A DNA stretch of 37,448 nt from Dokdonia sp. (GTDB lineage Bacteria; Bacteroidota; Bacteroidia; Flavobacteriales; Flavobacteriaceae). The notes beneath the pieces were generated by a model that was not told the DNA's origin, searched no databases, and worked only from the letters and a program-made list of their open reading frames with translations. Below are positions 1 to 35,799 of the stretch, one piece after another (positions within the stretch are counted from its first letter, which is position 1; each line of letters opens with the position of its first letter). The stretch lies in contig JAHDEV010000010.1 of the NCBI GenBank assembly GCA_020628615.1, forward strand, positions 1 through 37,448. Reading direction: 5' to 3'. A program made the position numbers and the translations under genes.

Positions 1-2221
1 GTGCATAAAGGTGTGAGTTACTTTGCTGGCTAGGAGCAAGCTCATCAAAATCAAACTTCCCGCTATATGCTACAGACGCGTCAAGCGTCCATTTATCTTT
101 TGCCCAGATTAAATGCCCATTTCCAAAGAGTGGTGCCACGTGTCTAAAAGGCACATAACTCCCATCTTCTTCTTGCTCTACACCACTCGTGTAATTAAAC
201 TGGCTTGTGAACTTTAAATGCTTTGTGAGGTTTGCATTTGCCCCTATCTCTACACCATACACCTCTGCCTTAGAAGCGTTTTGAATAGCTTGCACATTAC
301 TAGTCTCACCTTGATACTCTATTTCTGTAACACCATTAAGATTAAAATCACGGCGCACCAAGGCGTTCTCCAGCAGGGTATAATACCCGTTTACATCAAA
401 CTGTAGTACGTTAGAAAAATTAAGACGTACACCCAGCTCTCCATTATAGGCATATTCAGATTTAAGATCTGGATTAGGCACAACAACAGAGCCTGGCTCG
501 CTATCAAAAATTTTACCCACATCATCTATATTAGGCGCTCTAAAAGCTGTACCTACATTAGCCTTTACACTTACTTTTTTTGACACCTCGTGAGTCACGC
601 CAAAACTCCCAGTAAGATTACCGGTACTCAAGTCTGCGTTTTGAAAAGGAAATGCAAAAAACTCATTATTATCAGAAAAGTCGGCTGCTAGTAAGATATG
701 GTTATACCGTAATCCAGTTTGTAAATGTGTCTTATCAGAAAGCTCTATTTGTGCACTGGCATAAGCTGCTAGCGATTGCCAGGTAGAGCCATCTGGATAT
801 CTAGACGCTGTGTTTGCAATCTCACCCGTAGTTACATCTGTTACTTGACCATCTGAGTGTACTTTGTTGTGTATATACTCAAGGCCATAAAATATTTTGT
901 TCCTCTTAGTCTTAAGCTTCTTAACAAAATCTAACCCCACAGATATTGCATCTACACTCTCATCTGTCTCAAAGAAGTCTGTACCGTTAAAATCCCGGTC
1001 GTTTCTACTTTCTTTAGAGTTTTGGTATGTAAATGTACCTATCACTCTATCATAGTACTGACCATTACCTTCTTTATTAACCTGCAGGTTAGTCATAAAC
1101 CACTTTTGTGGGCCATAAAACCACTCTGCCGATCTAAATTCGCCATCACGTTTTCTCGTTAATCTATCATAACGATCATAATCTGAAGTGGCTGCATAAA
1201 TAACCCCAAGGTTAAAATCCCACTTTTCATTAGGCGTATATCTCACTTTTTGCATTAGATTAAGTGAGTTAAAAGCAGAGCCTACTTGTACCAGTGGGTC
1301 ATCATTTGTGACAGCTACATCTACCCCATCTATAGTCTGTACATATTCAGAACGCAGGTAATCATCTGGGCCGTGCTTCCCTTGTCGCTGGTTGTCATAA
1401 TCTGAGTAACTAGCACTTGTGAGGAAAGACCACTGTCTTTTACCTAGTGTAATATCAAAGTGACCCGTCTTCTCATTATTTGCCGTATTTACTCTAGCTA
1501 CAGCTGTACCTGTTACCGTAAGGTTGTCTGAAAATGATAGTTTGGGTTGTTTTGTATAAAAATTCATCACTCCACCTACAGCGTCACTACCATAAATCAC
1601 AGAACCTGGACCTAGTAATACTTCTGTGCGGTTTATAATAAAAGGATCAATAGATATCACGTTTTGCACGTTTCCTCCTCTAAATATTGCCGTGTTAAAT
1701 CTCACACCGTCTAATGTGATGAGTAGCCTATTTGTAGAGAATCCTCGTATGAGTGGACTACCTCCACCCTGCTGACTTTTTTGAACAAAAACAGACCCAC
1801 TTGTCTCTAGTAAATCTGCCGCTGTTTGCGGGTTTGCTCTTATAATATCTTTTGAGGTGAGACCTACTATTTTCTGAGGTACATTCTTTCGGCTTTGTGC
1901 AAATTTGCTTGCAGATAGCACAATTTCTGTAAGCTGGTTATCCTTTTGTTTGAGAAAAATTCGGTTAGAAAATGCTGCTATTTGTGCTTTTGTATACTGA
2001 GCGTCCTTATGTGCGACTTCTTGAAAATAAAGGGTTTCCGCTTTCGCGAAAGCGGTCACATCTGCCTTACCATCAAAATCTGTGAGTGCACTTTTACTCT
2101 TGTCATTATTAAAAATAGCAACCCCTATTATAGGCTCACGCGTGTCTACATCTAGTACTGTAATGACCTGCGAGTAAGAAGTAAAAGACAGCAGCAGAAA
2201 TAGGGATAAAAGTATGCGCAT
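1..2221 (-). CDS. TonB-dependent receptor, hemoglobin/transferrin-receptor-like (C-terminus outside window)
   Basis: Outer-membrane beta-barrel receptor that would import a bound ligand with TonB/ExbBD energy. The reading frame is open from an ATG at 2221 to the window edge (about 740 codons), so the end is missing. Seen: signal peptide at residues 1-18, a carboxypeptidase-regulatory-like domain at about 20-85, a plug at about 105-230 (DLLETSGSVFVQKSQQGGGS; VLLGPGSVIYGSDAVGG), then barrel strands with 'GTAFRAPNIDDVGKIFDSEP' and 'NPDLKSEYAYNGELG'. The plug and barrel wording resembles the heme/hemoglobin/transferrin receptor group, but ligand specificity is inference. The ATG directly follows the recO stop (TAAATG), so it is the last visible gene of the porZ-recO unit. 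Residues 57-61 (AFAKA) are encoded by a copy of the palindromic repeat at 2038-2055. Confidence 0.88.
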   Translation of the reverse strand, partial: MRILLSLFLLLSFTSYSQVITVLDVDTREPIIGVAIFNNDKSKSALTDFDGKADVTAFAKAETLYFQEVAHKDAQYTKAQIAAFSNRIFLKQKDNQLTEIVLSASKFAQSRKNVPQKIVGLTSKDIIRANPQTAADLLETSGSVFVQKSQQGGGSPLIRGFSTNRLLITLDGVRFNTAIFRGGNVQNVISIDPFIINRTEVLLGPGSVIYGSDAVGGVMNFYTKQPKLSFSDNLTVTGTAVARVNTANNEKTGHFDITLGKRQWSFLTSASYSDYDNQRQGKHGPDDYLRSEYVQTIDGVDVAVTNDDPLVQVGSAFNSLNLMQKVRYTPNEKWDFNLGVIYAATSDYDRYDRLTRKRDGEFRSAEWFYGPQKWFMTNLQVNKEGNGQYYDRVIGTFTYQNSKESRNDRDFNGTDFFETDESVDAISVGLDFVKKLKTKRNKIFYGLEYIHNKVHSDGQVTDVTTGEIANTASRYPDGSTWQSLAAYASAQIELSDKTHLQTGLRYNHILLAADFSDNNEFFAFPFQNADLSTGNLTGSFGVTHEVSKKVSVKANVGTAFRAPNIDDVGKIFDSEPGSVVVPNPDLKSEYAYNGELGVRLNFSNVLQFDVNGYYTLLENALVRRDFNLNGVTEIEYQGETSNVQAIQNASKAEVYGVEIGANANLTKHLKFTSQFNYTSGVEQEEDGSYVPFRHVAPLFGNGHLIWAKDKWTLDASVAYSGKFDFDELAPSQQSNSHLYA
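2038..2055. repeat. Palindromic repeat copy 1 (inside receptor gene)
   Basis: Perfect 18-bp inverted repeat with the core GCTTTCGCGAAAGC and CC/GG ends. It lies in frame in the regulatory-like domain of the TonB-dependent receptor, reading A-F-A-K-A. Confidence 0.9.
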
Positions 2222-2941
2222 TTAGCTAAAAATTGAGTTAAGCACCGCTAGTGAGCGAGGTTTCTTAAAACCTTGCAAATGTAACTCATAATACTGTAAC
2301 AGTATATTGAGAAAGGAGGTGCGTTGTTTTTGGTTTAGTTTGATTTGTGTAAGTGCATCAAAATTTATGCCTAAGAACCTTTTTAACAACTCAATTTCTT
2401 CTCCAGATCTACTATACAAGGTGCGCTCTGAAGACTCAAAATAACCATCTAGTAAATTAAAATACAGGTGATGTGCCTCACTATCATCTGGATAGAAGCC
2501 TAGATAGCCGCTTAACTTCACTAAAAATAGTAGATGAAAATTTGCAATATCACTGTGTAAGTCCAGCCATAAGCTTGAGGCAACCAAAAACTCAAATAGC
2601 GGTGCATTTTCTTCTTCCTCCTGCACAGAAGATCGCAGCATATCTGATATGAAAAAAACGATAGCGCTCTTTGCCACCTGCGTGTGCAGGCTGGTATAAT
2701 GAGTTATGACTTTTGCTTCTCTTATACTCTCGAGGGTACCCTTGTCTTTATGGTTTGCCTCTATCTCAAGATGCGTGAGCGGCTGAAACATTGCTACACG
2801 TAGCTTTCCTTTTTTGGATTTAAGGATATTTCTGAGCAGGTACGACTTGACACCACTGCTTTTTGTAAAAGCCTTTACAATAAGGTCTGCCTCACCATAC
2901 TTGAGCGCAGAGAATACAATAGCTTCTGTTTTTACTAGCAT
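2222..2941 (-). CDS. recO: DNA repair protein RecO
   Basis: RecO helps load RecA on SSB-coated single-stranded DNA in the RecFOR pathway and anneals complementary strands; cytoplasmic. The 239-residue length is normal. The start 'MLVKTEAIVFSALKYGEADL' is the typical RecO N-terminal OB-fold (residues 1-80), followed by the helical C-terminal domain, with 'KLSGYLGFYP' in the middle. The C-terminal zinc-finger cysteines of some RecO proteins are absent, as is usual in Bacteroidota. Its ATG overlaps the porZ stop by one base (TAATG), and its own stop abuts the receptor ATG, so all three are probably co-transcribed and translationally coupled. Confidence 0.93.
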   Translation of the reverse strand: MLVKTEAIVFSALKYGEADLIVKAFTKSSGVKSYLLRNILKSKKGKLRVAMFQPLTHLEIEANHKDKGTLESIREAKVITHYTSLHTQVAKSAIVFFISDMLRSSVQEEEENAPLFEFLVASSLWLDLHSDIANFHLLFLVKLSGYLGFYPDDSEAHHLYFNLLDGYFESSERTLYSRSGEEIELLKRFLGINFDALTQIKLNQKQRTSFLNILLQYYELHLQGFKKPRSLAVLNSIFS

Positions 2942-5220
2942 TATCGTATGATCATCACTTTTTCTATGGTAGTCTCTTGCATTTCTTCTGGAGGACCGGT
3001 AATGAGTAATAAGTATACCCCAGAAGCCACCTTATGACGGCCAAAGGCTGTTGTATCCCACTCTATGCTACCACCTGTGGTATTTTCTTCATAAACGAGG
3101 TTACCTACTAGATCTGTAATTTTTACATTAGTACGAGCGGTAAGCCCTTCTATACGTACGTTACCATTAAAGCCTGGTCTCACCGGGTTAGGATATATAA
3201 GTACATTCTCCAGATTATCTGCAGGAGCGGTAGAAGTACCATCAAAAGATACCATACCTCTTACGGTACCAAAATAAACACTACCCGTCTCTGGATCTAT
3301 CGCAACAGATTGTACCGTGTTAGACGGTAGTGGTGAGTTATCTGTAGTGAAGTGAAAAATGGTTTCTTGACCATTAGGACTCACGTAAAACACACCAGAG
3401 TCTGCAGTGGCTAGCCACTTATTATTTGCTCCATCTACAATGATATCTGTTATCACTTGGTCATTAAGCAATTCTTGAGCTAGACCATCCTCTAAAAATA
3501 TAATTGCATTTGCGCTTATCTGGGGGTTTTCAAAAATTTGTGATGGGCCAAATAGTACTCTAAGACCTAATCGTGTTCCAATCCATAAAGCCCCGTTTCT
3601 ATCTATTGCTAGCGAGCGTATATCATCTATGGGAAGGTTTGCCGCTCCATCTTCTCCGGCAAGTCTTGCAAACTCACTTGTAGCGGGATTATAGGCAATC
3701 ACACCTCTCGTATCTGTCCCAAAAAACACGACACCATCAAGACCTATTGCAAGGGCATCAAGATTTGCATCACTTCCAGCAAGTATCTCTTCTGTATTAA
3801 ATGATGAAAATTGCCCGGCTGGACTCACTCTATGTAATCCTAGTGGTGATCTTGCATTAGTCACCCAGAAATTACCCTCAGCATCATACGCTCCTCCGTT
3901 TACACGTACATCATCTGTAGTGGTTGCTACCGGAGATAGCGTACTATTATTTTCATCATATAAAATACTTGGTGTTGCATCTAGCACCTCAACTAGCCCT
4001 CCATTAAAAGAACTTGCATACAGCTGTGTAGGGTCTAAGGGGTTTACAGCAACGTGCACAAAATTTGTCGCCCCAAAAAGATCTCCAGGGTTTATAGAAC
4101 TCCACCCATCACCTTCTGTAAATTTGCTTATTCCCTGTGTTTTGAGAGGAAAAGGATTGTACGAAACATCAAAATCTCCAAAAACGGACCAAACATTTCC
4201 TGCACTAGCAGCCACATCAAAATGTTCATTTTCAAGCGGACCATTAGGCAATAATCGTATAACATCAGATATATTAGAACTAGAGAAACGAGCCACCCCA
4301 GAACCTAGCGTACCCACAAAGATTTCTCCTTGCAATGTTAAGGTAGTGGTGTATCTTGTTGTAAAACCTTCTATCGCACCATAGGTTTGTGCTAGATTTT
4401 GATTTTCATCATAGAGCAAGACGGTAGCGTTATATGTTACAGATAAGAAATCTTCATTAGGCCTAATGTCTATTACCGTCTCTGGGTATGATTCAAAAAT
4501 GCTATAATCTATCCCATTTTGAGAGATAAGAATCTGGTTATCTTCTTGTAGATAAAGATGATCATTAAAACTTACGATCTCCTGGTAAGATCCAGTACGT
4601 ATAGTCTCCCAGTTATTAAAATCTATAATATTATCGTTTGCAACAAGCGCTCTACGTACACCCCCGTCTATAGATGCGGCATAGATGTATGGCTCTTGTA
4701 TGGCTACACTACCTATATCTAGTAAGCCACCGCCATTACCTATAAAATATGAATCGTCAAACTCTAACTGACTAAGCTCAAATAAGGAAATACCAAAACT
4801 AGAGGATATATAAACAAAGCCATTATACTCTTCAAAATGATTAATGCGCTTACGGTCTGGTGGGATAGCTGGTTTATTAAAAATATCTACCACAGTAAGA
4901 ACATCTGTGCTATTACCCACTACAACATCTATAACTCCATTTTCATACCCTATAAAAAGTGTGTCAAAATTTTCACTATAATAAATAGCAGATATTACAT
5001 TACCAGAAAGACCATTTACGGTGGTTCTAGTCTCTATAGTCTCATCAAGTATGTTATATATAAAAACCGCATTTTCTGAAGCTACGTATACTCTATCATT
5101 ACCAGAGGTCATATCAGACACTCGGTTATACGAGTAATGTGCTGTCCAGTTTTCTGAAAAGTCTTGCGACATCACTGTTAGTGATGTGAGAAGAATCAAT
5201 AAGAAAAAACGCGTCTTCAC
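2941..5220 (-). CDS. porZ: PorZ-like T9SS protein (beta-propeller with C-terminal sorting domain)
   Basis: In Porphyromonas, PorZ is a cell-surface component of the T9SS attachment complex (with PorU, PorV and PorQ) and handles the sugar that is joined to secreted cargo. Seen here: signal peptide (residues 1-18, ending MSQ), an N-terminal propeller starting 'ENWTAHYSYNRVSDMTSGND', repeated blades with two-component-regulator-type wording ('DIRSLAIDRNGALWIGTRLG', 'LPSNTVQSVAIDPETGSVYF'), and a C-terminal sorting domain at about 670-759 ('NVLIYPNPVRPGFNG', 'KVASGVYLLLITG'). The 759-residue length and the recO neighbour match porZ loci of Bacteroidota as I know them. The symbol rests on this family recognition; a generic T9SS-sorted propeller protein is the alternative. 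First gene of porZ-recO-receptor. Confidence 0.78.
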   Translation of the reverse strand: MKTRFFLLILLTSLTVMSQDFSENWTAHYSYNRVSDMTSGNDRVYVASENAVFIYNILDETIETRTTVNGLSGNVISAIYYSENFDTLFIGYENGVIDVVVGNSTDVLTVVDIFNKPAIPPDRKRINHFEEYNGFVYISSSFGISLFELSQLEFDDSYFIGNGGGLLDIGSVAIQEPYIYAASIDGGVRRALVANDNIIDFNNWETIRTGSYQEIVSFNDHLYLQEDNQILISQNGIDYSIFESYPETVIDIRPNEDFLSVTYNATVLLYDENQNLAQTYGAIEGFTTRYTTTLTLQGEIFVGTLGSGVARFSSSNISDVIRLLPNGPLENEHFDVAASAGNVWSVFGDFDVSYNPFPLKTQGISKFTEGDGWSSINPGDLFGATNFVHVAVNPLDPTQLYASSFNGGLVEVLDATPSILYDENNSTLSPVATTTDDVRVNGGAYDAEGNFWVTNARSPLGLHRVSPAGQFSSFNTEEILAGSDANLDALAIGLDGVVFFGTDTRGVIAYNPATSEFARLAGEDGAANLPIDDIRSLAIDRNGALWIGTRLGLRVLFGPSQIFENPQISANAIIFLEDGLAQELLNDQVITDIIVDGANNKWLATADSGVFYVSPNGQETIFHFTTDNSPLPSNTVQSVAIDPETGSVYFGTVRGMVSFDGTSTAPADNLENVLIYPNPVRPGFNGNVRIEGLTARTNVKITDLVGNLVYEENTTGGSIEWDTTAFGRHKVASGVYLLLITGPPEEMQETTIEKVMIIR

Positions 5221-5322: not shown

Positions 5323-5340
5323 ACGCTTTCGCGAAAGCGT
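5323..5340. repeat. Palindromic repeat copy 2
   Basis: Perfect 18-bp ACGCTTTCGCGAAAGCGT between gdhA and porZ. It lies 13 bases beyond the T-run of the gdhA terminator in the direction of gdhA transcription. Confidence 0.93.
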
Positions 5341-7827: not shown

Positions 7828-7845
7828 ACGCTTTCGCGAAAGCGG
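7828..7845. repeat. Palindromic repeat copy 3
   Basis: ACGCTTTCGCGAAAGCGG, with a perfect 16-bp inverted core at 7829-7844. It is the only hairpin in the 44-base gap between two convergent stops (7805 plus, 7850 minus), where no T-run terminator is visible. Confidence 0.92.
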
Positions 7846-7849: not shown

Positions 7850-8989
7850 CTACCCAAGAGCCTGCTTAAGATCTTTTATTAAATCATCTACATCTTCTAT
7901 CCCGACACTTAGTCGTATTAATGAATCTGTTAAGCCTATTTTGAGTCTATCTTCCTTGGGTATTGCAGCGTGTGTCATTGTGGCTGGGTGACCGGCTAGA
8001 CTCTCAACCCCTCCAAGACTTTCGGCGAGCGTAAATATTTTTAAATTTTTTATAACCTTAAGTGCATCTTCTGTACTATCTCCATAGGAGGAAAATGATA
8101 ACATCCCTCCAAAATCCTTCATTTGTCTGGCAGCAATATGATGGCTAGGGTGGTCTTCAAAACCTGGCCAGTACACATTTTCTACTTTAGGGTGATTTTT
8201 GAGATAATGGGCAATTGCACACCCGTTTTGGCAATGCCTTTCCATACGCACGTGCAAGGTTTTTATACCCCGCAGCGCGAGAAAAGCGTCTTGAGGACCG
8301 CATATAGCTCCAGAAGCATTTTGAATAAAATAAAGCTTTTCTGCTAGCGTCTTTTCATTAACAATGAGCGCTCCCATTACTAGATCACTGTGGCCTCCTA
8401 TATATTTTGTAGCGCTATGCATCACAATATGCGCCCCCAGATCCAGAGGAGTCTGAAGATATGGAGTTGCAAACGTATTATCTACAGCAAGGAGTATGTT
8501 ATTTTCATTTGCAAGTTTGGCGACGGCTTGTATATCAAAAATGTTCATCATCGGGTTTGTGGGAGACTCCATCCAGATCATCTTTGTATTTTTTGTGATA
8601 CGAGTTTTGATATTTTGAATATCACTCATATTTACAAAATGGAAGGTAATACCGTAACCTTCGTAAACCTTAGTAAATAAGCGAAAAGAACCACCATAAA
8701 TATCATTTGTAGTGATAACCTCGTCACCAGGTTTAAGTAGTTTCATTACCGCATCTATCGCAGCCATACCAGAGGCAAATGCCATACCAAATGCTCCATT
8801 TTCTATACTTGCGAGAGATTGCTCAAGTGCGTGGCGTGTAGGATTCGCAGATCTGCTATAGGCATATCCCTTATGATCACCCGGTGACTCTTGAGCATAA
8901 GTAGAAGTTTGATAAATGGGAGGCATTACAGATCCATAAGCTGCATCTGGCTGCTGATTACCGTGTATGGTTTTCGTGTTAAATTTCAT
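7850..8989 (-). CDS. Cystathionine gamma-synthase / gamma-lyase (trans-sulfuration PLP enzyme)
   Basis: Cys/Met-metabolism PLP enzyme. It either makes cystathionine from an activated homoserine and cysteine (methionine route) or cleaves cystathionine to cysteine; cytoplasmic tetramer. The 379 residues are typical. Seen: 'YAYSRSANPTRHALE' (residues 42-56), 'FASGMAAIDAVM', 'ESPTNPMMNIFDI', the PLP lysine K195 in 'HSATKYIGGHSD', and 'AESLGGVESLAGHPATMTHA' near the C-terminus. These motifs do not separate synthase from lyase, so no symbol is given. Transcribed alone from a minus-strand promoter at 9010-9038, ending next to palindromic repeat copy 3. Confidence 0.92.
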   Translation of the reverse strand: MKFNTKTIHGNQQPDAAYGSVMPPIYQTSTYAQESPGDHKGYAYSRSANPTRHALEQSLASIENGAFGMAFASGMAAIDAVMKLLKPGDEVITTNDIYGGSFRLFTKVYEGYGITFHFVNMSDIQNIKTRITKNTKMIWMESPTNPMMNIFDIQAVAKLANENNILLAVDNTFATPYLQTPLDLGAHIVMHSATKYIGGHSDLVMGALIVNEKTLAEKLYFIQNASGAICGPQDAFLALRGIKTLHVRMERHCQNGCAIAHYLKNHPKVENVYWPGFEDHPSHHIAARQMKDFGGMLSFSSYGDSTEDALKVIKNLKIFTLAESLGGVESLAGHPATMTHAAIPKEDRLKIGLTDSLIRLSVGIEDVDDLIKDLKQALG

Positions 8990-9009
8990 AAGTAGATTTT
9001 TGCACCTTG

Positions 9010-9038
9010 CAAAGCTACTTAACTATAGTAAAAAACAA
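9010..9038 (-). promoter_or_regulatory. Promoter of the trans-sulfuration gene
   Basis: On the minus strand TTG (9038-9036), 18 nt, then TAGCTTTG (9017-9010), a perfect TAnnTTTG. The box ends 20 bases before the ATG at 8989, giving a short leader. Confidence 0.6.
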
Positions 9039-9245
9039 CCCTGCTGATTAGCTCAAAAAAATATTAAATCCCTAACATTTTAACACACTAACGTTTGTTA
9101 ATTGGTTTTTTGTAGGTTTTTGTCTACAAACAAGGCTAAGAATAATGCTCTTTAACGAAAAAAAATAAATTTATACTCCCATAAAATATTCTGGCTAATT
9201 AAATAACTTATATTTAACACATTAGTAACCTTAAACAACTTTAGT

Positions 9246-10493
9246 ATGAAAAAAATTACTCTTGCATTTTTAATGCTTTTTACTAGTTTATTTGCAATCG
9301 GTCAATGTGACTACACATTGGAGCTTAATGACAGTTTTGGTGACGGTTGGAATGGAAACTCCATTGATGTTATCGTAAATGGCACAATCGTTTTAGACGA
9401 CGCCACACTAGACGCTGGAAGTCAGGGATTTGAGACTTTTAGTGTTACAGATGGTGATGCTATTACCTTTACTGTAGACGACTCTGGTTCTTTTGACGGA
9501 GAAGTTTCTTATCGTATACTAAATAATGTAGACCAAGAGGTAGGAACTGGTGATCTTGTAGATGTACCAACAGAAATTACTGCAAACTGTATAGACTGTA
9601 CTCCAGGTGCCGCAATGGTAGAAGTTTTTGGGGATTGTGATAACGGTGAATTTAGCGTTATTGTAAACATTACTGATTTTGGAGATGCAACAGAATTTGT
9701 TGTAACAACAAACTATAATAGTCTATCAGAAACAATTACAGATACCGGTGCAACTTTGCTTGGGCCCTTTAATGTAAGTGAGACTGCAATAGAGGTTACT
9801 CTTACACCACAAGATGCTGATTGTGTTCTTACATATGAAAGAGAAATCCCTTGCCCACCTTCTAACGACGAATGTTCTGGAGCAAGAGGACTAGGTGATG
9901 GACAAACTACATTACAAAATATCTCAAACGCAACACCTGATACAACAGGATGTGGAGATACTGGTGGAGCTGCCGTATGGTATTTTGTTAACGATGGAGG
10001 AACAGCTACTGAGGTGACCATTTCTACTGCCGGGTCAGACTTTGACACTATCATTGCATCTATCACTGGTGATTGTGATAACCAAGTCTGTGGAGAGGTC
10101 AATGATGATGCAAATGGAACATTACAAAGTGAACTTACGTTTACAACTCCGGGAACTGGAGAAAATGTATATATTCTAGTTCTAGGTTTTGGTGGTGCTA
10201 CTGGAAACCTTCAAATTAGTGCTACTGGAGATGGTTTATTATCTACTGGAGAATCTAACCAGCTAGATGGATTTACAATGTTTCCTAATCCAGCGCAAGA
10301 TTTTCTTAACGTAAGTAATTCATCTATTATCGAAAATGTAAAAGTGTTCAATTTACTTGGTCAAAAGGTTTTAGATCAAAACCTTCAATCAACACAAAAT
10401 CAAATAAACGTTTCAGAATTAACCCCTGGCGCTTACTTAGTACAAGTAACTGCAGAAGGTCAAACAGGAACTTACAAGTTTATCAAGCAATAA
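9246..10493 (+). CDS. Secreted protein with T9SS type A sorting domain
   Basis: Predicted extracellular or cell-surface protein of 415 residues exported by Sec and then T9SS; its substrate is unknown. Signal peptide 1-20 (ending IGQ). Residues 21-115 carry 'YTLELNDSFGDGWNGNSIDV', a small beta-sandwich type common in Bacteroidota secreted proteins. A second domain at about 205-335 resembles a pre-peptidase C-terminal-like sandwich ('AAVWYFVNDGG', 'FDTIIASITGDCDNQVCGEV', 'VYILVLGFGGATGNLQI'). The C-terminal sorting domain at about 340-415 has 'LDGFTMFPNPAQDFLNVS' and ends 'GTYKFIKQ'. No enzymatic domain is visible, so a binding or adhesin role is only a guess. Acidic and cysteine-paired. Followed by a strong terminator. 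Confidence 0.85.
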   Translation: MKKITLAFLMLFTSLFAIGQCDYTLELNDSFGDGWNGNSIDVIVNGTIVLDDATLDAGSQGFETFSVTDGDAITFTVDDSGSFDGEVSYRILNNVDQEVGTGDLVDVPTEITANCIDCTPGAAMVEVFGDCDNGEFSVIVNITDFGDATEFVVTTNYNSLSETITDTGATLLGPFNVSETAIEVTLTPQDADCVLTYEREIPCPPSNDECSGARGLGDGQTTLQNISNATPDTTGCGDTGGAAVWYFVNDGGTATEVTISTAGSDFDTIIASITGDCDNQVCGEVNDDANGTLQSELTFTTPGTGENVYILVLGFGGATGNLQISATGDGLLSTGESNQLDGFTMFPNPAQDFLNVSNSSIIENVKVFNLLGQKVLDQNLQSTQNQINVSELTPGAYLVQVTAEGQTGTYKFIKQ

Positions 10494-10514
10494 GCTTTAT
10501 AAGCTAAATTTTTT

Positions 10515-10549
10515 AAAAGGCTACTCATATATATGAGTAGCCTTTTTTT
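10515..10549 (+). terminator. Intrinsic terminator (32-bp loop-less perfect palindrome)
   Basis: A 32-bp perfect palindrome, AAAAGGCTACTCATAT and its reverse complement, runs into T7. It closes the secreted-protein gene and, being symmetric with A/T runs on both sides, could also work on the other strand. Confidence 0.92.
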
Positions 10550-10577
10550 ATTGGAGCCATAACCCTACTTTTATCTA

Positions 10578-11300
10578 ATGAAAAAACATCTGGCTCCCCT
10601 GCTGCTTATTATTATTTACATAACCACTGTAAGTTGTGAGAAAGAAATTGTTTATGAAACAAACAGCACTCACTACACAACTAGTGATATAGACATATGC
10701 GCCACGCAGCCCTGTCCAGATATAGATATTGAGATTATTACCTTCACTTCACCTGAGACGGTAAAAGACTTTGCAAATAAGTGGATTCTTGACAAGACAA
10801 CTTCCACTTTGTATAATGCTTCTAATGTGCCAGACCTTAGCATAACAGATGCAATAGACCTATACATTAATGAATCTCAAATTTCATATCCCGAAACTAC
10901 TGAGCTCTCTGATGCTCACGAAATTCAAATAGAAACAGCGCTCTCATATGGGACTAATAATTTACTCTCTATTGTGCACTATACCTATCAATTTTCTGGC
11001 GGTGCTAGTGGGTATGATACAGCTAGCTATCTCAACCTAAATCCACAAAATGGAGAGCTGTTATCAAAAGAAGCACTATTTACAGAAGATTTTTACGCTT
11101 TCGCGAAAGCGTACTTCTCAAAAGAATACCCCCAGCAGGAGCATTTATTTAATGTACTCACATTTAATGAAAACCTACAAGAAGTAGGATTTACCGAAGA
11201 CGGCGTAATTCTTAATTATGCAGAGGTAGATGCATTATATACGGAGAATATGGTGGTTACTATACCTTGGAACGAAACGGAAAGTTATCTTACTTTTTAA
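10578..11300 (+). CDS. Lipoprotein with DUF3298/RsiV-like domain
   Basis: Predicted outer- or periplasm-facing lipoprotein of 240 residues. The signal 'LLLIIIYITTVSCEK' gives the lipidated cysteine at C20. The body ends in a DUF3298-type (PdaC/RsiV C-terminal) fold: 'LLSIVHYTYQFSGGASGYDT' then 'YLNLNPQNGELLSKEALF' and 'VGFTEDGVILNYAEVDAL'. In other bacteria this domain occurs in anti-sigma factor RsiV and in peptidoglycan deacetylase accessory regions; here no sigma factor or deacetylase is adjacent, so the role is unknown. Residues 174-178 (AFAKA) come from palindromic repeat copy 4. Its 3' end overlaps the convergent DinB-like gene by 11 bases. Confidence 0.78.
   Translation: MKKHLAPLLLIIIYITTVSCEKEIVYETNSTHYTTSDIDICATQPCPDIDIEIITFTSPETVKDFANKWILDKTTSTLYNASNVPDLSITDAIDLYINESQISYPETTELSDAHEIQIETALSYGTNNLLSIVHYTYQFSGGASGYDTASYLNLNPQNGELLSKEALFTEDFYAFAKAYFSKEYPQQEHLFNVLTFNENLQEVGFTEDGVILNYAEVDALYTENMVVTIPWNETESYLTF
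11095..11112. repeat. Palindromic repeat copy 4 (inside lipoprotein gene)
   Basis: Perfect 18-bp ACGCTTTCGCGAAAGCGT in the coding sequence, read in frame as A-F-A-K-A between 'TEDFY' and 'YFSKE'. Confidence 0.93.
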
Positions 11301-11754
11301 GGAGTTTTGACAACTGTATAACGCACCCTAAGTGTAAGCCTTCGTGATAATTATTAAATTCCAGCGCTTCTCCGACGTTTGTTAATGTACCTCCCGTAGT
11401 AGATAATGTGTATTCTTTAAAGTCTTTAAAAAGTCCAGCTTCATAATCTTCTTGTAATTCTGCTAGTGTTGTAAACAAGAGTGTATGCATTTGTGCCACT
11501 TCTTCTTGAGTAACTAGCCCTTCTGGTTTTGTACCTTTTCTATACCGATCGATAAATGCCATATCAAGCCTAGGTTTAAGGCCTGAGAGCCCATATGTAA
11601 GAAGTTGCTGTGTGGCGATGCTATGACCTATATTCCATATAATGTTATTATTAAAACCTTCTGGAATCGTGTTAAGTTCCTCTGTAGTATGACTTTTTAT
11701 AAAGCGTTCTAAGAGTTGTCTACTTTTAAGACAGATATCAAAAGTATAGGTCAT
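11290..11754 (-). CDS. DinB superfamily protein
   Basis: Four-helix-bundle protein of the DinB/YfiT metal-binding fold, 154 residues, probably cytoplasmic. Likely metal ligands are H44 in 'IIWNIGHSIATQQ' and H137/H141 in 'NNYHEGLHLG', the usual three-histidine pattern of this fold. Members include thiol-dependent transferases and many proteins of unknown function; nothing here fixes a substrate. Divergent from the ArsC/Spx-like gene at 11839, with an 84-base shared upstream region. No terminator of its own: its stop lies inside the convergent lipoprotein gene. Confidence 0.8.
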   Translation of the reverse strand: MTYTFDICLKSRQLLERFIKSHTTEELNTIPEGFNNNIIWNIGHSIATQQLLTYGLSGLKPRLDMAFIDRYRKGTKPEGLVTQEEVAQMHTLLFTTLAELQEDYEAGLFKDFKEYTLSTTGGTLTNVGEALEFNNYHEGLHLGCVIQLSKLLKK

Positions 11755-11838
11755 ATTGTGTAATTTTTGTCTAAAAATAATTCATTTTAGATAAGTTAGA
11801 TGGTAATTTTGTAAAGTAATTCAACAAGTCACCATATT

Positions 11839-12195
11839 TTGAAAAAAATCATACACTTAGCTACTTGCAATACTTGCCAGCGCATTATTTCTGAAATAAA
11901 CCCGTCTAGTGACGTTATATTACAAGACATTAAAACCGAACCTCTTACAGAAGAGCAAGTTGTGGCTATGAAAGAAATGAGCGGTAGTTATGAGTCGCTT
12001 TTTAGTAAACGAGCGCAACTCTACCGTAAACGTGGTCTTAACGAGCAATCTCTCTCTGAAGAAGATTTTAAAAACCTTATACTTGAACACTACACTTTTT
12101 TAAAGCGCCCGGTTATGATTGTAGATAATCAAATATTTGTAGGTAATAGCAAGAAAGTTGTTGCTGCTGCTGTTGAGGCATTTTCAAAAGCATAG
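11839..12195 (+). CDS. ArsC/Spx-family thioredoxin-fold protein
   Basis: Small (118 residues) thioredoxin-fold protein of the arsenate reductase ArsC/Spx/YffB group. 'HLATCNTCQRI' near the N-terminus holds a CxxC pair (C10, C13), as in Spx-like members, and 'FLKRPVMIVDNQIFVG' is the family's cis-proline region. True arsenate reduction cannot be claimed: the neighbours are not arsenic-resistance genes. Start is TTG: the frame has no ATG or GTG between the upstream stop at 11812 and the conserved region. A TAATTTTG box lies at 11804-11811. Six bases separate it from the EamA permease, so it heads a three-gene unit. Confidence 0.8.
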   Translation: MKKIIHLATCNTCQRIISEINPSSDVILQDIKTEPLTEEQVVAMKEMSGSYESLFSKRAQLYRKRGLNEQSLSEEDFKNLILEHYTFLKRPVMIVDNQIFVGNSKKVVAAAVEAFSKA

Positions 12196-12201
12196 TTTAT
12201 T

Positions 12202-13095
12202 ATGAGCAAGCGTCATCTCGCATTTCTTGCTGCCTTTGGCGCTAGTTTTATATATGGTGTAAATCACACGCTGGCAAAAGATCTTATGCCCACCTATATT
12301 GAGGCATATGGGTTTATTATGCTTAGAGTGTTAGGCGCAGCGATACTATTCTGGATTACAAGCTTGTTTTTACCCTCAGAAAAGATTGACCGTAAAGACT
12401 GGTGGCGCATTATACTTTGTGCTCTTTTTGGGATGACTATTAATATGCTTATGTTTTTTAAGGGGTTACAGCTGTCTACTCCTATAAACAGTAGTGTGGT
12501 CATCACCCTATCTCCAGTTATCCTTCTTATTCTATCGGCTTTATTTTTAAAAGAAAAAATCACTTGGCTCAAAGGGTCTGGTATTGCTATAGGCCTAGTA
12601 GGGGCACTTATTCTTATATTATTTGGCGCAAAAACTCAAGCTAATGCGCCCAATATACCTCTAGGTAACACGCTGTTTATAATTAATGCCATTGCCTACT
12701 CCGTCTATCTAATTTTAGTAAAACCACTCACGGCCAAATATGCCTCGGTCACACTTATGAAATGGTTTTTCTTAATAGCAGTATTTACAAACGCACCCAT
12801 TGCCTTACCTCAATTTCTCGAAGTACAGTGGTCTAGTTTACCACCTTCGGTTATAGGTGTAATGCTGTTTGTAGTAATAGGCACCACATACTTAACATAC
12901 CTATTTAATGTATTTGCCCTGCGCCAGCTCAAACCATCTACTATAGGAGCCTTTATCTATCTGCAACCACTTATCGCAACACTCGTAGCTATCATACTAG
13001 GAGCAGATTCTCTTACCACAATACGCATTATAGCGGCATCACTCATTTTCTTAGGCGTATATTTAAGTACCAAAAGAAAAAAACAAAGTGCCTAG
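12202..13095 (+). CDS. EamA/DMT-family transporter
   Basis: Inner-membrane permease of the drug/metabolite transporter superfamily, 297 residues with about ten hydrophobic segments in two EamA repeats (about residues 5-140 and 155-290). Repeat 1 ends 'ALFLKEKITWLKGSGIAIGL' and repeat 2 contains 'PLIATLVAIILGADSLT', the usual junction motif. Substrates in this family include amino acids and other metabolites; none can be assigned. Middle gene of the unit: 6 bases after the ArsC/Spx-like gene and overlapping the next gene by 8 bases, which suggests coupled translation. Confidence 0.9.
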   Translation: MSKRHLAFLAAFGASFIYGVNHTLAKDLMPTYIEAYGFIMLRVLGAAILFWITSLFLPSEKIDRKDWWRIILCALFGMTINMLMFFKGLQLSTPINSSVVITLSPVILLILSALFLKEKITWLKGSGIAIGLVGALILILFGAKTQANAPNIPLGNTLFIINAIAYSVYLILVKPLTAKYASVTLMKWFFLIAVFTNAPIALPQFLEVQWSSLPPSVIGVMLFVVIGTTYLTYLFNVFALRQLKPSTIGAFIYLQPLIATLVAIILGADSLTTIRIIAASLIFLGVYLSTKRKKQSA

Positions 13096-18612: not shown

Positions 18613-18630
18613 ACGCTTTCGCGAAAGCGT
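18613..18630. repeat. Palindromic repeat copy 7
   Basis: Perfect 18-bp ACGCTTTCGCGAAAGCGT in the divergent region between threonine dehydrogenase and the 18706 lipoprotein. A minus-strand TAAGTTTG box (18641-18634) lies just beyond it, which would put the repeat in the dehydrogenase leader mRNA. Confidence 0.93.
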
Positions 18631-19965: not shown

Positions 19966-22900
19966 ATGAAAAAACTACTACTACTAGGCTTCTGCCTAGT
20001 CACGGGAGTATCTGTCGCTCAGATAGGTACATCTGCCCCTTGGATGGAAAATTTTAACAATCCTAACCGAATTACAGAACCCACTTTTCAAGAAATCGTA
20101 AATGCTTTTGAGCTATACTGGCAAGACAAAGATGAGACCGTAAAAGGAAGCGGTTACAAACCATTTAAAAGATGGGAATCCTTTCACCAAAATTATCTTA
20201 ATGATGATGGTACCGTAATGTCTCAAAAGCAACTTTGGGATGTATGGCAAGAACTAAATAGCTCTTCACGTGCGGCACAAGCAGATGATAGCGACTGGGT
20301 AAATATAGGGCCACTTACACATACTAACACGGGCTCTTGGTCTGCAGGTCAAGGTCGTGTAAATGCGATGGCTGTAGACCCAACAAACCCTGCTGTTATT
20401 TATATAGGTGCTCCAGCTGGAGGTATCTGGAAGTCTACAGACACAGGTGCCACGTGGACACCTCTTACAGATCAATTACCACAAATAGGAGTATCTGGAA
20501 TTGCTATTGATCCTACCGATAGTGATATCATATACATTGCAACTGGTGATGATGATGCTGGTGACTCTACAAGTGTAGGTGTTATGAAATCTACAGATGG
20601 AGGTGTTACTTGGAACACCACAGGTCTTAATGAAAGTAATTCTCCTTTAACAATGAATGAGATTTACTTTGATCCTGCAGATAATAAGACACTATGGCTC
20701 GCAACTAGTGAGGGTGTATATAAAACGGTAGACAGCGGCCTCAATTGGGAAAATAAAATCACAGGTAACTTTGATGATTTAAAAGTAAAACCAGGAAGCT
20801 CTGACGTGCTATATGCAGCTACTTCAAATAGAGTTTATAGATCTCTAGATGCTGGAGAAACTTGGACAAACGTATCTGCAGGAGTCATTACTGGTGCTGC
20901 CAGACTCGTACTAGATGTCACCCCTGCAAATCCAGAAGTTCTCTATGTATTTAGATCTGATTCAAGTTTTGGTTCTGGATCAATATTTAAATCTACAGAC
21001 AGTGCAGACACATTTGTAGAGACTTTTACTGGAGGTCAAGATATTTTCCAGAGTACGCAGGCCTGGTTTGATATGGCTTTTGCAGTTTCAGACACAAATG
21101 AAGATGAAATTTATACGGGTATTCTTAACGTGTGGAAATCTACTAATGGTGGCGCAAACTTCACACAACTTAACGACTGGAGTTCCCCAAACCAAGCAGC
21201 ATATACCCACGCAGATATTCATAATTTACGCTTTATAAATGGGACTCTTTATTGCGGTAGTGATGGTGGTATTTATACATCTACAGATGGTGGCGCTAGT
21301 TTTACAAGCATTACAGATGGTCTAGCAATAGGGCAATTTTATAGAATAGACGTAGCTGCAACAGATGCCTCTCTTATTTCTGGAGGATTACAAGATAACG
21401 GAGGTTATGCCCGCCTTAATGAGCAATGGCAAAACTACTACGGAGCAGATGGAATGGAAAATGTCTTTGATCCAAATGATCCAAGTAGAGTCTACGGATT
21501 TATACAAAGTGGTGGTGGTCCATATTTTTCAAACAATGGAGGAGCATCACTAGCAGGAGCTTTCAACTCGCCAGAAACTGGTAACTGGATAACACCTCTT
21601 GCCTTTGCAAAAGACAGTAAACTATATGCAGGATATACTAGTGTATACGAGCTAGATTTTTGTTCAAATAGTTGGGTACAACGTTCGTCATCATTTGGGA
21701 CTCGTATTGACCATCTTGAAACAGATCCAAATAATGCAGAGGTAATGTATGTCGCAGTTGATAATCAACTATACAAAAGTTCTGACAGTGGCGAGAATTT
21801 TGATTTCGTGACTAATTTTTCAAATAATATATCTTCACTTGAAGTGAAATATGGAGACAGCTCGACTATCTATATAGTAACTGCTGGAACTTCAGGTAGA
21901 GTATATCAAGGCACAATTACAGGAGTAGATATTGTTGCAACTGAAATTACGGGGTCATTACCAGAAGTGCCAAAACTTGTAATTAAACACCAAAATTTGC
22001 ACTCTCAAAATCCACTTTACTTAGGTACAGCACTAGGAGTATGGAGGTATGATGATATCACAAACGATTGGGAAACCTTTGATAATGGATTACCTAACAC
22101 TGCTGTGCGTGACTTAGATATTAATGAATCAAACGGAATTCTAACTGCAGCAACCTACGGCCGTGGCATCTGGCAAACTAACATAGATACAGAGCCTATA
22201 GCGCTAGACATAGCAACGACTTCTCTTATACCTTTAGGTAATCAAGCACTCTCTTGTGAAGAAATCCCTACAGAGCTTACTCTTATAAATAGCGGTACAG
22301 ATGTGATTACAGCTGCAACTATAAACTATATGGCTGGCGGTATATCAAACACAATAGAGTGGTCTGGGTCGCTCGCATCTCAAGAGTCTACCACTGTAGA
22401 ATTACCTGTGCTGGGGCTTCCTACTGGTACTTATGAACTAGTTGCAGAGGTTATACTAGATGGTGATCAGTTAATTGATAATAATGACTCAAGAACAATT
22501 CTAGCTGTAAATGCAGTAGGTGAAGGCGATCTTATAAATGATTTTGAATCAGAAGAAGACACCCTTCTGATACTAACTGAAAACAGCAACGGAGGTAATT
22601 GTGATACATCAAGTGCTACTTGGCAAAGAGGAATCCCTACAGGCCCAGCTCTAAACCAAGCGGCATCTGGTGAGAATGTATATGCTACTAATCTAAGCGG
22701 TGATCACGGTGATAATATCAAAGAGTTTTTAACTACTAAATGTTATGATATTTCTGCACTAGACGTTCCTCAAATCTCTTTCAAGATGGCTTTTGAGCTA
22801 GAAACTGATTGGGATATAATGTATATGGAGTATACTACAGATAATGGCGTTACCTGGAATATATTAGGAACAGCAAATGATCCTAACTGGTATAACAGTG

Positions 22901-23367
22901 ACACATTACCTGGTAACAATTGTTTTAACTGTCCAGGAGCACAGTGGACAGGTGATAATGACACCTCTCTTAACGAGTATAGCTATGACCTTACAGCCTT
23001 TGCCGCAGAGACCAGTATGATCTTTAGATTTGTTTTCCACTCAGATCAGAACACTGTGAGAGAAGGAGTACTCTTAGATGATTTACATATAGGTCTTGAC
23101 CCACTTGCTATAGATGAGGTAACGGTTTCAGGGCTTAGTATACACCCAAACCCATCAAACGGTATTTTTAATATTAATTGGTCTCAAGGAACTCCGCTTA
23201 TTATAGAAGTTTATGACATCTTAGGTAAGGTGGTTGTAAAACCTATTACAACCACTGCAGGTGAGACTACCTATCCATTAGATATGAGCTCATATGCCAC
23301 CGGTTTATATTTACTAAAACTCAATACAGGCACAAAGCAAATAACCAAAAAACTGATACGCAACTAA
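19966..23367 (+). CDS. Large secreted BNR/VPS10-type propeller protein with T9SS sorting domain
   Basis: 1133-residue exported protein. Signal peptide 1-18 (ending SVAQ). Residues of about 100-740 hold many sialidase/BNR-type blades ('SAGQGRVNAMAVDPTNPAVI', 'GGIWKSTDTGATWTPLTDQL', 'GIYTSTDGGASFTSITDG'), like the VPS10/glycosyl-hydrolase-type propellers of Bacteroidota exoproteins. A CARDB-like segment follows at about 745-845, then a jelly-roll region at about 850-1045 ('SGENVYATNLSGDHGDNIKE', 'SMIFRFVFHSDQNTVREGVL'). The C-terminal sorting domain at about 1055-1133 has 'LSIHPNPSNGIFNINWSQG' and ends 'TKKLIRN'. No catalytic residues assigned; probably a surface binding or degradative accessory protein. 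Confidence 0.85.
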   Translation: MKKLLLLGFCLVTGVSVAQIGTSAPWMENFNNPNRITEPTFQEIVNAFELYWQDKDETVKGSGYKPFKRWESFHQNYLNDDGTVMSQKQLWDVWQELNSSSRAAQADDSDWVNIGPLTHTNTGSWSAGQGRVNAMAVDPTNPAVIYIGAPAGGIWKSTDTGATWTPLTDQLPQIGVSGIAIDPTDSDIIYIATGDDDAGDSTSVGVMKSTDGGVTWNTTGLNESNSPLTMNEIYFDPADNKTLWLATSEGVYKTVDSGLNWENKITGNFDDLKVKPGSSDVLYAATSNRVYRSLDAGETWTNVSAGVITGAARLVLDVTPANPEVLYVFRSDSSFGSGSIFKSTDSADTFVETFTGGQDIFQSTQAWFDMAFAVSDTNEDEIYTGILNVWKSTNGGANFTQLNDWSSPNQAAYTHADIHNLRFINGTLYCGSDGGIYTSTDGGASFTSITDGLAIGQFYRIDVAATDASLISGGLQDNGGYARLNEQWQNYYGADGMENVFDPNDPSRVYGFIQSGGGPYFSNNGGASLAGAFNSPETGNWITPLAFAKDSKLYAGYTSVYELDFCSNSWVQRSSSFGTRIDHLETDPNNAEVMYVAVDNQLYKSSDSGENFDFVTNFSNNISSLEVKYGDSSTIYIVTAGTSGRVYQGTITGVDIVATEITGSLPEVPKLVIKHQNLHSQNPLYLGTALGVWRYDDITNDWETFDNGLPNTAVRDLDINESNGILTAATYGRGIWQTNIDTEPIALDIATTSLIPLGNQALSCEEIPTELTLINSGTDVITAATINYMAGGISNTIEWSGSLASQESTTVELPVLGLPTGTYELVAEVILDGDQLIDNNDSRTILAVNAVGEGDLINDFESEEDTLLILTENSNGGNCDTSSATWQRGIPTGPALNQAASGENVYATNLSGDHGDNIKEFLTTKCYDISALDVPQISFKMAFELETDWDIMYMEYTTDNGVTWNILGTANDPNWYNSDTLPGNNCFNCPGAQWTGDNDTSLNEYSYDLTAFAAETSMIFRFVFHSDQNTVREGVLLDDLHIGLDPLAIDEVTVSGLSIHPNPSNGIFNINWSQGTPLIIEVYDILGKVVVKPITTTAGETTYPLDMSSYATGLYLLKLNTGTKQITKKLIRN

Positions 23368-25586: not shown

Positions 25587-25604
25587 ATGCTTTCGCGAAA
25601 GCGT
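25587..25604. repeat. Palindromic repeat copy 8
   Basis: ATGCTTTCGCGAAAGCGT, one change from the 18-bp consensus, starting on the base after the T-run of the M13 terminator. Confidence 0.92.
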
Positions 25605-28889: not shown

Positions 28890-28907
28890 ACGCTTTCGCG
28901 AAAGCGT
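28890..28907. repeat. Palindromic repeat copy 9
   Basis: Perfect 18-bp ACGCTTTCGCGAAAGCGT between the divergent M28 peptidase and CBS-pair genes. Confidence 0.93.
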
Positions 28908-32146: not shown

Positions 32147-32164
32147 ACGCTTTCGCGAAAGCGT
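32147..32164. repeat. Palindromic repeat copy 10
   Basis: Perfect 18-bp ACGCTTTCGCGAAAGCGT starting immediately after the T-run of the CAP terminator and 40 bases before the dioxygenase ATG. A TACTTTTA box (32176-32183) lies 12 bases downstream. Confidence 0.93.
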
Positions 32165-32741: not shown

Positions 32742-32763
32742 TAAAAAAACAGAATAATTTTTA

Positions 32764-34480: not shown

Positions 34481-34501
34481 ACTAAACACTATTAATAGTA
34501 C

Positions 34502-34535: not shown

Positions 34536-34553
34536 ATGCTTTCGCGAAAGCGT
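34536..34553. repeat. Palindromic repeat copy 11
   Basis: ATGCTTTCGCGAAAGCGT, the same single change as copy 8, directly behind the ALDH7 terminator T-run. Confidence 0.92.
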
Positions 34554-34605
34554 CACCCCGCACAAATAAGTTATCTTTCTAGCACATTAAGAACGAGATT
34601 ATTTT

Positions 34606-35772
34606 TTGAAGCCTGCACCACACATCTTACCTACCATTGTTTTTGCACAGTTTTGTGGTACGTCGTTATGGTTTTCGGGTAATGCGGTGATGCCTGGGCT
34701 CATAAGTGATTTTTATCTTAATCAAAATGCCGTAGCACATCTTACAACTGCTGTACAGCTAGGGTTTATAGTAGGTACGCTTCTATTTGCCATTTTTGCC
34801 ATTGCAGACAGATTTTCTCCTTCTAGAGTATTTCTAGTTTGTGCGACCACGGGCGCTTTGTTTAACCTTGCTATGATTTGGCAGGGTAACACGCTCTCTA
34901 CACTGCTCTTATTGCGATTTCTCACCGGTTTTTTTCTAGCTGGAATATATCCCGTAGGGATGAAAATAGCAGCAGATTATTTTGACAAAGGACTGGGTCG
35001 CTCGCTGGGATATCTAGTAGGTGCTCTTGTGCTAGGTACAGCATTTCCCCATTTACTAGGTGATTTATTAGCTAGTGTCTCTTGGCAAACCGTGATGATT
35101 ATTACCTCTTGTGCCGCAGTGTTTGGTGGGGTTTTATTACAGTTGCTAGTGCCAGACGGACCATACAGAAGGGCCGGAGGCACCTTAAGCTTTAAACAAC
35201 TAAAGGATATATTTAAAGACTCTAATTTTAATAAGGCCGCACTAGGATACATAGGTCATATGTGGGAATTATACACCTTCTGGACGCTCGTGCCTGCCAT
35301 ACTAATAGCCTATGTAAAACAGCATCCAGACACAAGCCTATCTGTAAGCTTATATTCGTTTATAATTATAGGTTCAGGCTCCATTGCTTGTATAGCGGGT
35401 GGCTATCTATCACAAAAGGTAGGAGTTCAAAAAATGGCAAAACGCTTCTTACTCTTGTCTGGTATGTGCTGCCTTATAGCGCCGTTGTTATTGAGCACAG
35501 CATATTACCTAGCTGTCATTGTGTTTCTCATTTTTTGGGGTATGGTCGTCATTGCAGACTCCCCACTCTTTTCTACACTCGTAGCCCAGCGAGCCGCACC
35601 CGCTGTAAAAGGTACTGCCTTAACTATTGTAAATTGTCTAGGGTTTGCCATTACAATTATTAGTATACAGGCACTTGTATTACTACAGTCTTTTGTGCCG
35701 CTTATGTATGTCTTACCACTTCTCGCTATAGGTCCTGTTTTTGGGCTGCTCGCTATGAGAAAGCAAAAATGA
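34606..35772 (+). CDS. MFS transporter
   Basis: 388-residue major-facilitator permease with about 12 hydrophobic segments. 'FAIADRFSPSRVFLVCATTG' is the loop 2-3 signature region and 'LLRFLTGFFLAGIYPVGMKI' the TM4 region typical of the superfamily. Substrate unknown. The start is TTG at 34606: the frame has a stop at 34588 and no ATG or GTG before TM1 ('ILPTIVFAQFCGTSLWFSG'). The next in-frame ATG (in 'NAVMPGL') would delete TM1. Monocistronic; palindromic repeat copy 11 lies 53 bases upstream and copy 12 starts 10 bases after the stop. Confidence 0.9.
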   Translation: MKPAPHILPTIVFAQFCGTSLWFSGNAVMPGLISDFYLNQNAVAHLTTAVQLGFIVGTLLFAIFAIADRFSPSRVFLVCATTGALFNLAMIWQGNTLSTLLLLRFLTGFFLAGIYPVGMKIAADYFDKGLGRSLGYLVGALVLGTAFPHLLGDLLASVSWQTVMIITSCAAVFGGVLLQLLVPDGPYRRAGGTLSFKQLKDIFKDSNFNKAALGYIGHMWELYTFWTLVPAILIAYVKQHPDTSLSVSLYSFIIIGSGSIACIAGGYLSQKVGVQKMAKRFLLLSGMCCLIAPLLLSTAYYLAVIVFLIFWGMVVIADSPLFSTLVAQRAAPAVKGTALTIVNCLGFAITIISIQALVLLQSFVPLMYVLPLLAIGPVFGLLAMRKQK

Positions 35773-35781
35773 TTTTCTTTT

Positions 35782-35799
35782 ACGCTTTCGCGCAAGCGT
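35782..35799. repeat. Palindromic repeat copy 12 (variant)
   Basis: ACGCTTTCGCGCAAGCGT: one A-to-C change in the right arm, shared with copy 6. It lies 10 bases after the MFS stop. Confidence 0.88.

Follow-up and report, generated by a model that had tools for sequence, protein, structure and literature searches.

According to a 2013 account, a requirement for short uptake sequences is unique to Neisseria and the Pasteurellaceae (PMC3630211). The uptake signal sequences (USS) of the Pasteurellaceae and the DNA uptake sequences (DUS) of the Neisseriaceae are evenly spaced (Karlin, cited in PMC1939737), occur both in and out of genes with an excess in non-coding DNA, have no orientation bias, combine a short core with a contribution from the flanks, are biased toward core genes, and have copies in phage DNA (PMC1939737, PMC7811141, PMC6776037). 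For example, uptake sequences are reported to be denser in the core genes of H. influenzae, and Pasteurellaceae prophages accumulate USS, while large, likely lytic phages are USS-poor (PMC6776037). Here we describe a sequence that is alike in most of these respects in Dokdonia (Flavobacteriaceae). It is a perfect 14-bp palindrome, GCTTTCGCGAAAGC, which recurs along a 37,448-nucleotide contig of a Dokdonia sp. (JAHDEV010000010.1; hereafter the window, meaning this contig at its full length). We propose that it probably serves natural transformation as an uptake sequence, by which self DNA is recognised.

The palindrome also departs from the described systems. USS and DUS are reported at more than 1000 copies per genome and their cores are non-palindromic sequences of 9–12 bp, whereas the Dokdonia palindrome occurs in hundreds and its 14-bp core lies within a symmetric unit of about 52 bp. 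Also, its hosts are Bacteroidota, where the transformation genes of Riemerella include surface proteins that are unlike the known ones (PMC8459023). The cyanobacterial HIP1 (GCGATCGC) is likewise a highly iterated, lineage-specific palindrome with palindromic extensions (PMC4390886), and it is 8 bp long (to about 10) and linked to methyltransferases. In contrast, the Dokdonia palindrome has 14 bp plus flanks, and its inner hexamer is not enriched. Two other kinds of site resemble it. Repetitive extragenic palindromic (REP) sequences are hairpin-capable palindromes that occur in hundreds, many of them between genes, and parS/Noc sites are perfect palindromes of about 14–16 bp with a TTTC...GAAA core, present in tens of copies at most and regionally clustered. 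Unlike REP sequences and their transposases (RAYT), the Dokdonia palindrome comes with no RAYT match in 14 of 18 carriers and no insertion signature, and many of its copies are in coding frames; unlike parS/Noc sites, it occurs in hundreds and is evenly spread.

The window is one contig (C234) of a 252-contig, 2.72-Mb, 77% complete genome. A first-pass annotation, made from the letters alone, had listed 12 copies of the palindrome in it. We find the same 12 places: ten exact 14-mers, one with a single mismatch (35784), and one with two mismatches (15522). Five of the exact copies extend to an exact 18-mer (5323, 11095, 18613, 28890, and 32147), and a search for the 18-mer with up to three mismatches gives 11 matches. 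Across 100 dinucleotide shuffles of the window, the mean number of such matches was 0.01 and the maximum was 1. A second-order Markov model predicts 4e-5 exact 14-mers in the window, which bears out the annotation's remark that a 14-mer is not expected there even once. By our home-made gene call, three of the ten exact copies are in genes (2040, 11097, and 13471) and seven are outside; together with the copy at 35782, these make up the eight intergenic copies that had been noted. The copies are as follows (no strand is assigned to them).

2038–2055, exact 14-mer core with CC...GG arms, in a minus-strand gene that starts at 2221 and reaches the window's left edge; AFAKA frame
5323–5340, exact 18-mer, between a porZ-like gene and a glutamate dehydrogenase gene
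7828–7845, exact 14-mer core, in a convergent gap
11095–11112, exact 18-mer, within the open reading frame (ORF) 10578–11300; AFAKA frame
13469–13486, exact 14-mer core, within ORF 13088–14218; TLSRK frame
15521–15536, degenerate copy with two mismatches in the 14-mer, close to the start of ORF 15503–16471
18613–18630, exact 18-mer, in a divergent gap
25587–25604, exact 14-mer core, in a convergent gap
28890–28907, exact 18-mer, in a divergent gap
32147–32164, exact 18-mer, in a gap between co-directional genes
34536–34553, exact 14-mer core, in a gap between co-directional genes
35782–35799, copy with one mismatch in the 14-mer, directly after the stop codon of ORF 34606–35772

The window's genome as a whole contains 737 exact 14-mers in 2.72 Mb and, as a control, not one instance of the same pattern read backwards. 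In a search of this genome and 58 relatives, 20 of the 59 carried the 14-mer and 39 did not. All 18 genomes of the window's genus are among the carriers, with 369–905 copies each; the others are G027, a member of a different genus with 578 copies, and G029, with 6 in a single contig. G027 is tied to an uncultured Nonlabens by a site at an identical position, 2552 on the second contig. Among 397 family genomes, 16 had matches to the 18-mer: two members of the window's genus (247 and 202), three of genus g11 (23–112), G230 of genus g210 (13), and ten further genomes with 1–3. Most loci in named genomes are in Dokdonia and Nonlabens, with single matches elsewhere, including an Aureimonas, among the matches listed. 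In a phylum-wide sample (with Nonlabens and g210 outside it), 13 of 198 genomes had the 14-mer and only the window's own had more than four copies. A blind k-mer search recovered the palindrome in four of five pieces from Nonlabens and g210. The same search found no repeated palindrome in 11 usable pieces from other genera (ten of 20 kb and one of 10 kb; four additional samples were masked and excluded), where repeats of a non-palindromic kind were limited to a local array in L342 and to 12-mers present three times in L341 and L352. Six further pieces gave a 14-mer in L146 and a 12-mer present three times in L147. So, the palindrome is iterated in Dokdonia, Nonlabens, and one further genus, and elsewhere we saw only stray or clustered copies. 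In the third genus (G230, 46% GC; L155–L158 and L353–L355), the same core is iterated with weaker flanks and relatively more imperfect copies, and the motif there may be decaying or may be a looser dialect.

To describe the unit, we used 307 distinct sites from 1.25 Mb, of which about 0.8 Mb had been chosen for holding the 18-mer. The core is flanked as TAC...GTA. Beyond this, the 5′ flank is poor in C (background frequency 0.19; 0.15 at −15 and 0.02–0.09 at the other positions between −11 and −25), the 3′ flank is poor in G, and G or T is preferred at −11, −14, and −17. As the flank signal fades beyond −26, the unit is about 52 bp long. The pattern does not change with the type of gap (convergent, divergent, or co-directional), and genes of either strand show it as well, so it belongs to the DNA itself rather than to its transcripts. 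It is also found in Nonlabens; in G230, G often stands in place of T and C is less depleted. Perfect copies far outnumber one-mismatch copies, by 308 to 40 in this set. A separate count by group gave 203 versus 36 for Dokdonia, 66 versus 7 for Nonlabens, and 23 versus 5 for G230. Outside the palindrome, the central hexamer TCGCGA occurs 63 times in 800 kb, against a maximal-order Markov expectation of 61.5 and a base-composition expectation of 103.9; half-sites likewise match the former kind of expectation and mostly fall short of the latter. As neither the half-sites nor the hexamer are in excess on their own, the full palindrome is the unit.

Two simpler accounts of the flanks were rejected. 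The flanks do not lengthen a hairpin: complementarity at position 2 exceeds every shuffle, but beyond the first few positions the mirrored bases are no more complementary than shuffled partners. Nor is the 3-bp spacing of the flank peaks an artefact of reading frames, as the pattern and its peaks persist at 106 sites that lack an open frame of 60 codons, and stop codons are not avoided there.

The palindrome is indifferent to the orientation of genes. (Gene calls were home-made, and the densities by class are therefore approximate.) Of 308 copies in 1.25 Mb, 126 are inside called genes, 171 are between them, and 11 are unclassed; in the pieces that were not selected by motif, 45 of 110 copies are inside genes. 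The density is 1.36 copies per kb in convergent gaps, 1.16 in co-directional gaps, 1.23 in divergent gaps, and about 0.12 in genes, or about tenfold higher between genes than in them. All three reading frames are used by the intragenic copies (AFAKA 68, TLSRK-type 35, and RFRES-type 23), which are scattered along the proteins. The last 20 bp before starts are avoided (0.33 per kb) and the first 20 bp after stops are dense (4.93 per kb). Farther out, at distances of 20–120 bp, there are 1.31 copies per kb ahead of starts and 1.76 per kb behind stops, a ratio of about three quarters.

The spacing of the palindromes, at about one per 3.3 kb, is far more even than chance. In six 200-kb segments (two pairs of which are orthologous), the coefficient of variation of the distance between copies with at most one mismatch was 0.49–0.59. 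Random placement weighted toward intergenic DNA gave 1.03 and 1.13 in the two segments with gene calls, and none of 1000 runs was as low as observed in either; in each of the other four segments, none of 2000 runs of homogeneous random placement was as low. On the G016 chromosome, which has 93 sites of an extended 22-mer, the 85 listed ones are distributed along its length.

The core is maintained by selection. We call a site kept if the exact core is found in the aligned stretch; as the genomes are related, many of their sites do not count as independent observations. G002 and G016 are about 95% identical. Starting from the 58 sites of G002, 47 of 50 alignable sites were kept, and starting from the 54 sites of G016, 47 of 49. 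From G007 to G005 (about 90% identical), 42 of 46 alignable sites were kept (49 sites in all), and in the reverse direction all 43 sites were alignable and kept. The average identity of these pairs predicts retention of 49% (47/50 seen) and 23% (42/46 seen). The window site at 2040, which is in a gene, has an exact counterpart in all but one of 14 aligned Dokdonia orthologues (13 of 14). Across the 12 species that are more distant, 47 of 48 of its third codon positions are kept, versus 1671 of 3267 elsewhere in the gene stretch. Thus, the 14-bp core is under purifying selection, and this includes silent codon positions. Flank identity at kept sites is near background, or at most a few per cent lower.

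There is also turnover. Other window sites come and go among relatives. Five sites are present in only one of G002 and G016, and in each a single core base differs, in place. Four sites are absent from G005, three of them by in-place base changes (one, one, and three) and one in a region that was rebuilt. DNA that is common to sister species has 198 sites in 735 kb, and unshared DNA has just 1 in 50 kb, where 13.4 would be expected (Poisson P = 2e-5). The first-pass annotation had read the A-to-C arm change common to the copies at 15521 and 35782 as a mark of descent or copying. This view is not supported: the 30-bp flanks of the two copies are unrelated, most differences between orthologous sites are in-place base changes, and strain-specific DNA is nearly free of the motif. 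Its main claim, a highly iterated palindrome, survives the comparison of counts with expectation and of sites with those of relatives.

At the window copy 5323–5340, relative to the 95%-identical G002, the immediate flanks look replaced and the core and the outer sequence are retained, unlike at other sites. This one site (window 5325, W versus G002) had suggested that the flanks are hypervariable, but this is not general at kept sites.

The palindrome is also found in phages. From at least 120 stretches in virus collections, many of which are GC-rich with a single match and no flank signal, we picked 20 phage records by flanks, GC, and number of matches; several are near-duplicates. Of these records, which were preselected by having a match, 18 hold 2–8 sites (with at most one mismatch) in 12–40 kb and two hold one. 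Tests of ten of their proteins identified a Mu-type portal/F protein and a terminase in one record, a transposase in another, and an integrase in a third; flavophages are among the relatives of the chosen records. The flank pattern at 29 distinct phage sites is similar but weaker, with C less depleted. When sites were projected between related phages (in overlapping comparisons), 17 of 28 were kept versus 3.0 expected; between phages with 64–66% identity, most sites were lost. Two close relatives whose host is named Persicivirga and whose organism name is Nonlabens phage, P12024S (35.7 kb) and P12024L (30.0 kb), have no copy with up to two mismatches; we take both to be lytic. The nearest annotated relative of one carrier phage, Peternella_1 of Winogradskyella, also has no copy with up to two mismatches in its 37.5 kb.

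In genomes with stray copies, the copies are in part clustered: five of ten such genomes hold at least two exact cores in the 12–20 kb examined, as does G029. A prophage-like region occurs in three genera without an iterated palindrome (L143:1–20000, L151:1–18000, and L150:5689–11660), with exact copies in each: five in one genus, four in another, and a single one in the third. In G116 and G091 such a region is 88% identical over 15.6 kb and all four sites therein are kept. (Its phage nature is suggested by the gene layout and by one protein, of nine tested, that weakly matches a terminase.) Islands with resistance-nodulation-division (RND) efflux and multicopper-oxidase genes (L152, L154, and L153) carry exact copies in genomes without the iterated motif. 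Also, one family genome has four exact palindromes within 16 kb (G200:C1:311231–326922) and none elsewhere, and this cluster is likely another transferred island. The palindrome may thus tag DNA that was transferred from Dokdonia- or Nonlabens-like donors.

These properties resemble those of known uptake sequences. Even spacing, presence in coding and non-coding DNA, the lack of orientation bias, and the bias toward the core genome fit the profile reported for uptake sequences. That profile also has copies in prophages and few in likely lytic phages, which the phage records described here may match. In the mechanism that we propose, a surface receptor would bind double-stranded DNA that bears the palindrome. 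Given the symmetry of the palindrome and the unit's length of about 52 bp, this receptor is probably a symmetric dimer. It would hand the bound DNA to the competence machine, and the DNA would then recombine. Palindrome-bearing DNA would be taken up more often than DNA without the palindrome, and such a bias would spread the copies and keep them. One site per roughly 3 kb would be enough for fragments of a few kb. Competence in Dokdonia, a gain in uptake from the palindrome, and the identity of its reader protein are inferred.

Some Flavobacteriaceae are competent. Riemerella is reported to need ComEC, DprA, ComF, and RecA plus four proteins of its own; two of these, an outer-membrane protein with a CarboxypepD_reg domain and a surface protein with DUF5689, are encoded in a predicted operon (PMC8459023). 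In R. columbina, only its own DNA competed at equal dose, and the putative uptake sequences of that study are frequent words of up to 10 bp, all A/T-rich, whose function it leaves open (PMC7965970). All 18 genomes of the window's genus that were searched have a ComEC domain. In a Dokdonia locus (L364), a CarboxypepD_reg protein (9595–12426) adjoins a DUF5689 protein (8162–9568), and this pair, judged by domains and gene order, is like the Riemerella pair. A tentative extension of our proposal is that the Bacteroidota could have here their first DNA uptake sequence, one that is palindromic, is read symmetrically over about 52 bp by the outer-membrane barrel and the DUF5689 surface protein instead of a type IV pilin, and evolved independently of DUS and USS. 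In this region (L364:8162–13561), the divergent neighbor of the barrel/DUF5689 pair is an endonuclease/exonuclease gene of the Exo_endo_phos_3 family; if its product is a secreted nuclease, it would be a sensible companion of a DNA-uptake operon.

The window itself has a porZ-like gene of the type IX secretion system at 2941–5220 (T9SS_PorZ, E = 3e-217) and encodes proteins sorted by this system at 9246–10493 and 19966–23367.

Several observations argue against an uptake sequence. As described so far, uptake sequences are non-palindromic and have shorter cores (PMC1939737, PMC3630211). ComEC is also present in all 6 genomes searched that do not iterate the palindrome and in 10 of the 14 controls (E. 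coli among them), and 27 of 28 family genomes have a DUF5689 homologue. As the competence genes are also found in genera without the motif, and ComEC in most controls, they show capacity at most; among the competence genes tested, none is a reader limited to the motif-bearing genera. The site at 2040 has more positional stability than drive alone requires. The depletion of accessory DNA fits any motif that accumulates slowly. The lower density upstream of starts may leave room for an intracellular binder that disturbs promoters. Finally, one phage site persists at 66–68% nucleotide identity, which could mean that the phage uses it directly.

The main rival, which we think is unlikely, is that the palindrome is bound inside the cell by a chromosome-organising protein (a nucleoid, loop, or insulator protein, or a strong gyrase-type site). 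A dimer would read the palindrome and its C-poor and G-poor flanks, and the sites would form a ruler of about 3 kb in which selection fills each interval. The even spacing with repulsion of near neighbors, the distribution of the listed extended sites along the G016 chromosome, and the strong conservation in and out of genes all fit this, as do the preference for G or T at −11, −14, and −17, which is as expected for a large protein footprint, the presence in phage records, and the slight shortage of sites ahead of starts relative to the DNA behind stops. However, architecture would have to span strain-specific DNA, which is nearly without sites (1 in 50 kb). Also, larger genomes are not richer in sites (905 in 3.3 Mb and 903 in 5.5 Mb), the sites do not shun divergent gaps, and we found no reader gene, with ParB-like and other reader families not searched for. 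The first-pass annotation had likened the palindrome to iterated palindromes such as HIP1 or to uptake or architecture motifs. This was right in kind, with uptake now best supported and architecture its main competitor, but the HIP1 branch is disfavored. So is the suggestion that TCGCGA is a methyltransferase target. A site made or kept by a methyltransferase that recognises this center would match HIP1 and the alternate HIPs in being a perfect, iterated, lineage-specific palindrome (PMC4390886), but the hexamer and the half-sites are not above the Markov expectation outside the palindrome, and the conserved unit of about 52 bp is far longer than a methyltransferase site. On these sequence counts and the unit length, we consider this the least probable of the explanations.

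A Chi-type site, at which the enzyme that resects double-strand breaks switches mode so that self DNA is protected and a G/T-rich 5′ flank favors RecA loading, is improbable too. The 5′ side is indeed G/T-rich and C-poor on both strands, there is about one site per 3–4 kb, and phage records have the palindrome. But known Chi sites are 5–8 nt long, non-palindromic, and strand-biased; half-sites of the palindrome are not enriched, and most genera of the family lack the motif. Finally, hundreds of copies, intergenic enrichment, and the high density directly after stop codons (4.9 per kb in the first 20 bp) could point to a mobile or copying palindrome (REP with a RAYT transposase, or the transposition of a small element) or to a bidirectional terminator. 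We give this very little credence. The REP/RAYT version was rejected because 14 of 18 Dokdonia genomes have no match to Y1_Tnp (RAYT). Eight of nine sites that are found in only one species of a pair differ by in-place base changes (one region was rebuilt), and strain-specific DNA, as noted above, is nearly devoid of the palindrome. The terminator was rejected because the 3′ flank is A/C-rich rather than T-rich and because divergent gaps hold sites at much the same density as the other two kinds of gap.

A literature text search found no mention of the 14-mer, and the ten matches for TTTCGCGAAA, judged by title and the start of the abstract, were not about a bacterial repeat. Among the matches listed, the literature on HIP and on uptake contains no description of this motif, and there is no report of competence in Dokdonia. 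So, we found no published function for these several hundred conserved 52-bp sites per genome.

If the reader of the palindrome proves to be intracellular, then these genomes would have an unusually regular chromosome ruler. If the palindrome is an uptake sequence, as we propose, then uptake specificity would have evolved again, in the Flavobacteriaceae and with other surface proteins, and this would be a third, palindromic case. It would provide a handle for finding the receptor and for transforming these bacteria. The palindrome would also mark which bacteria exchange DNA, with the same tag on islands and on a prophage-like region in other genera.

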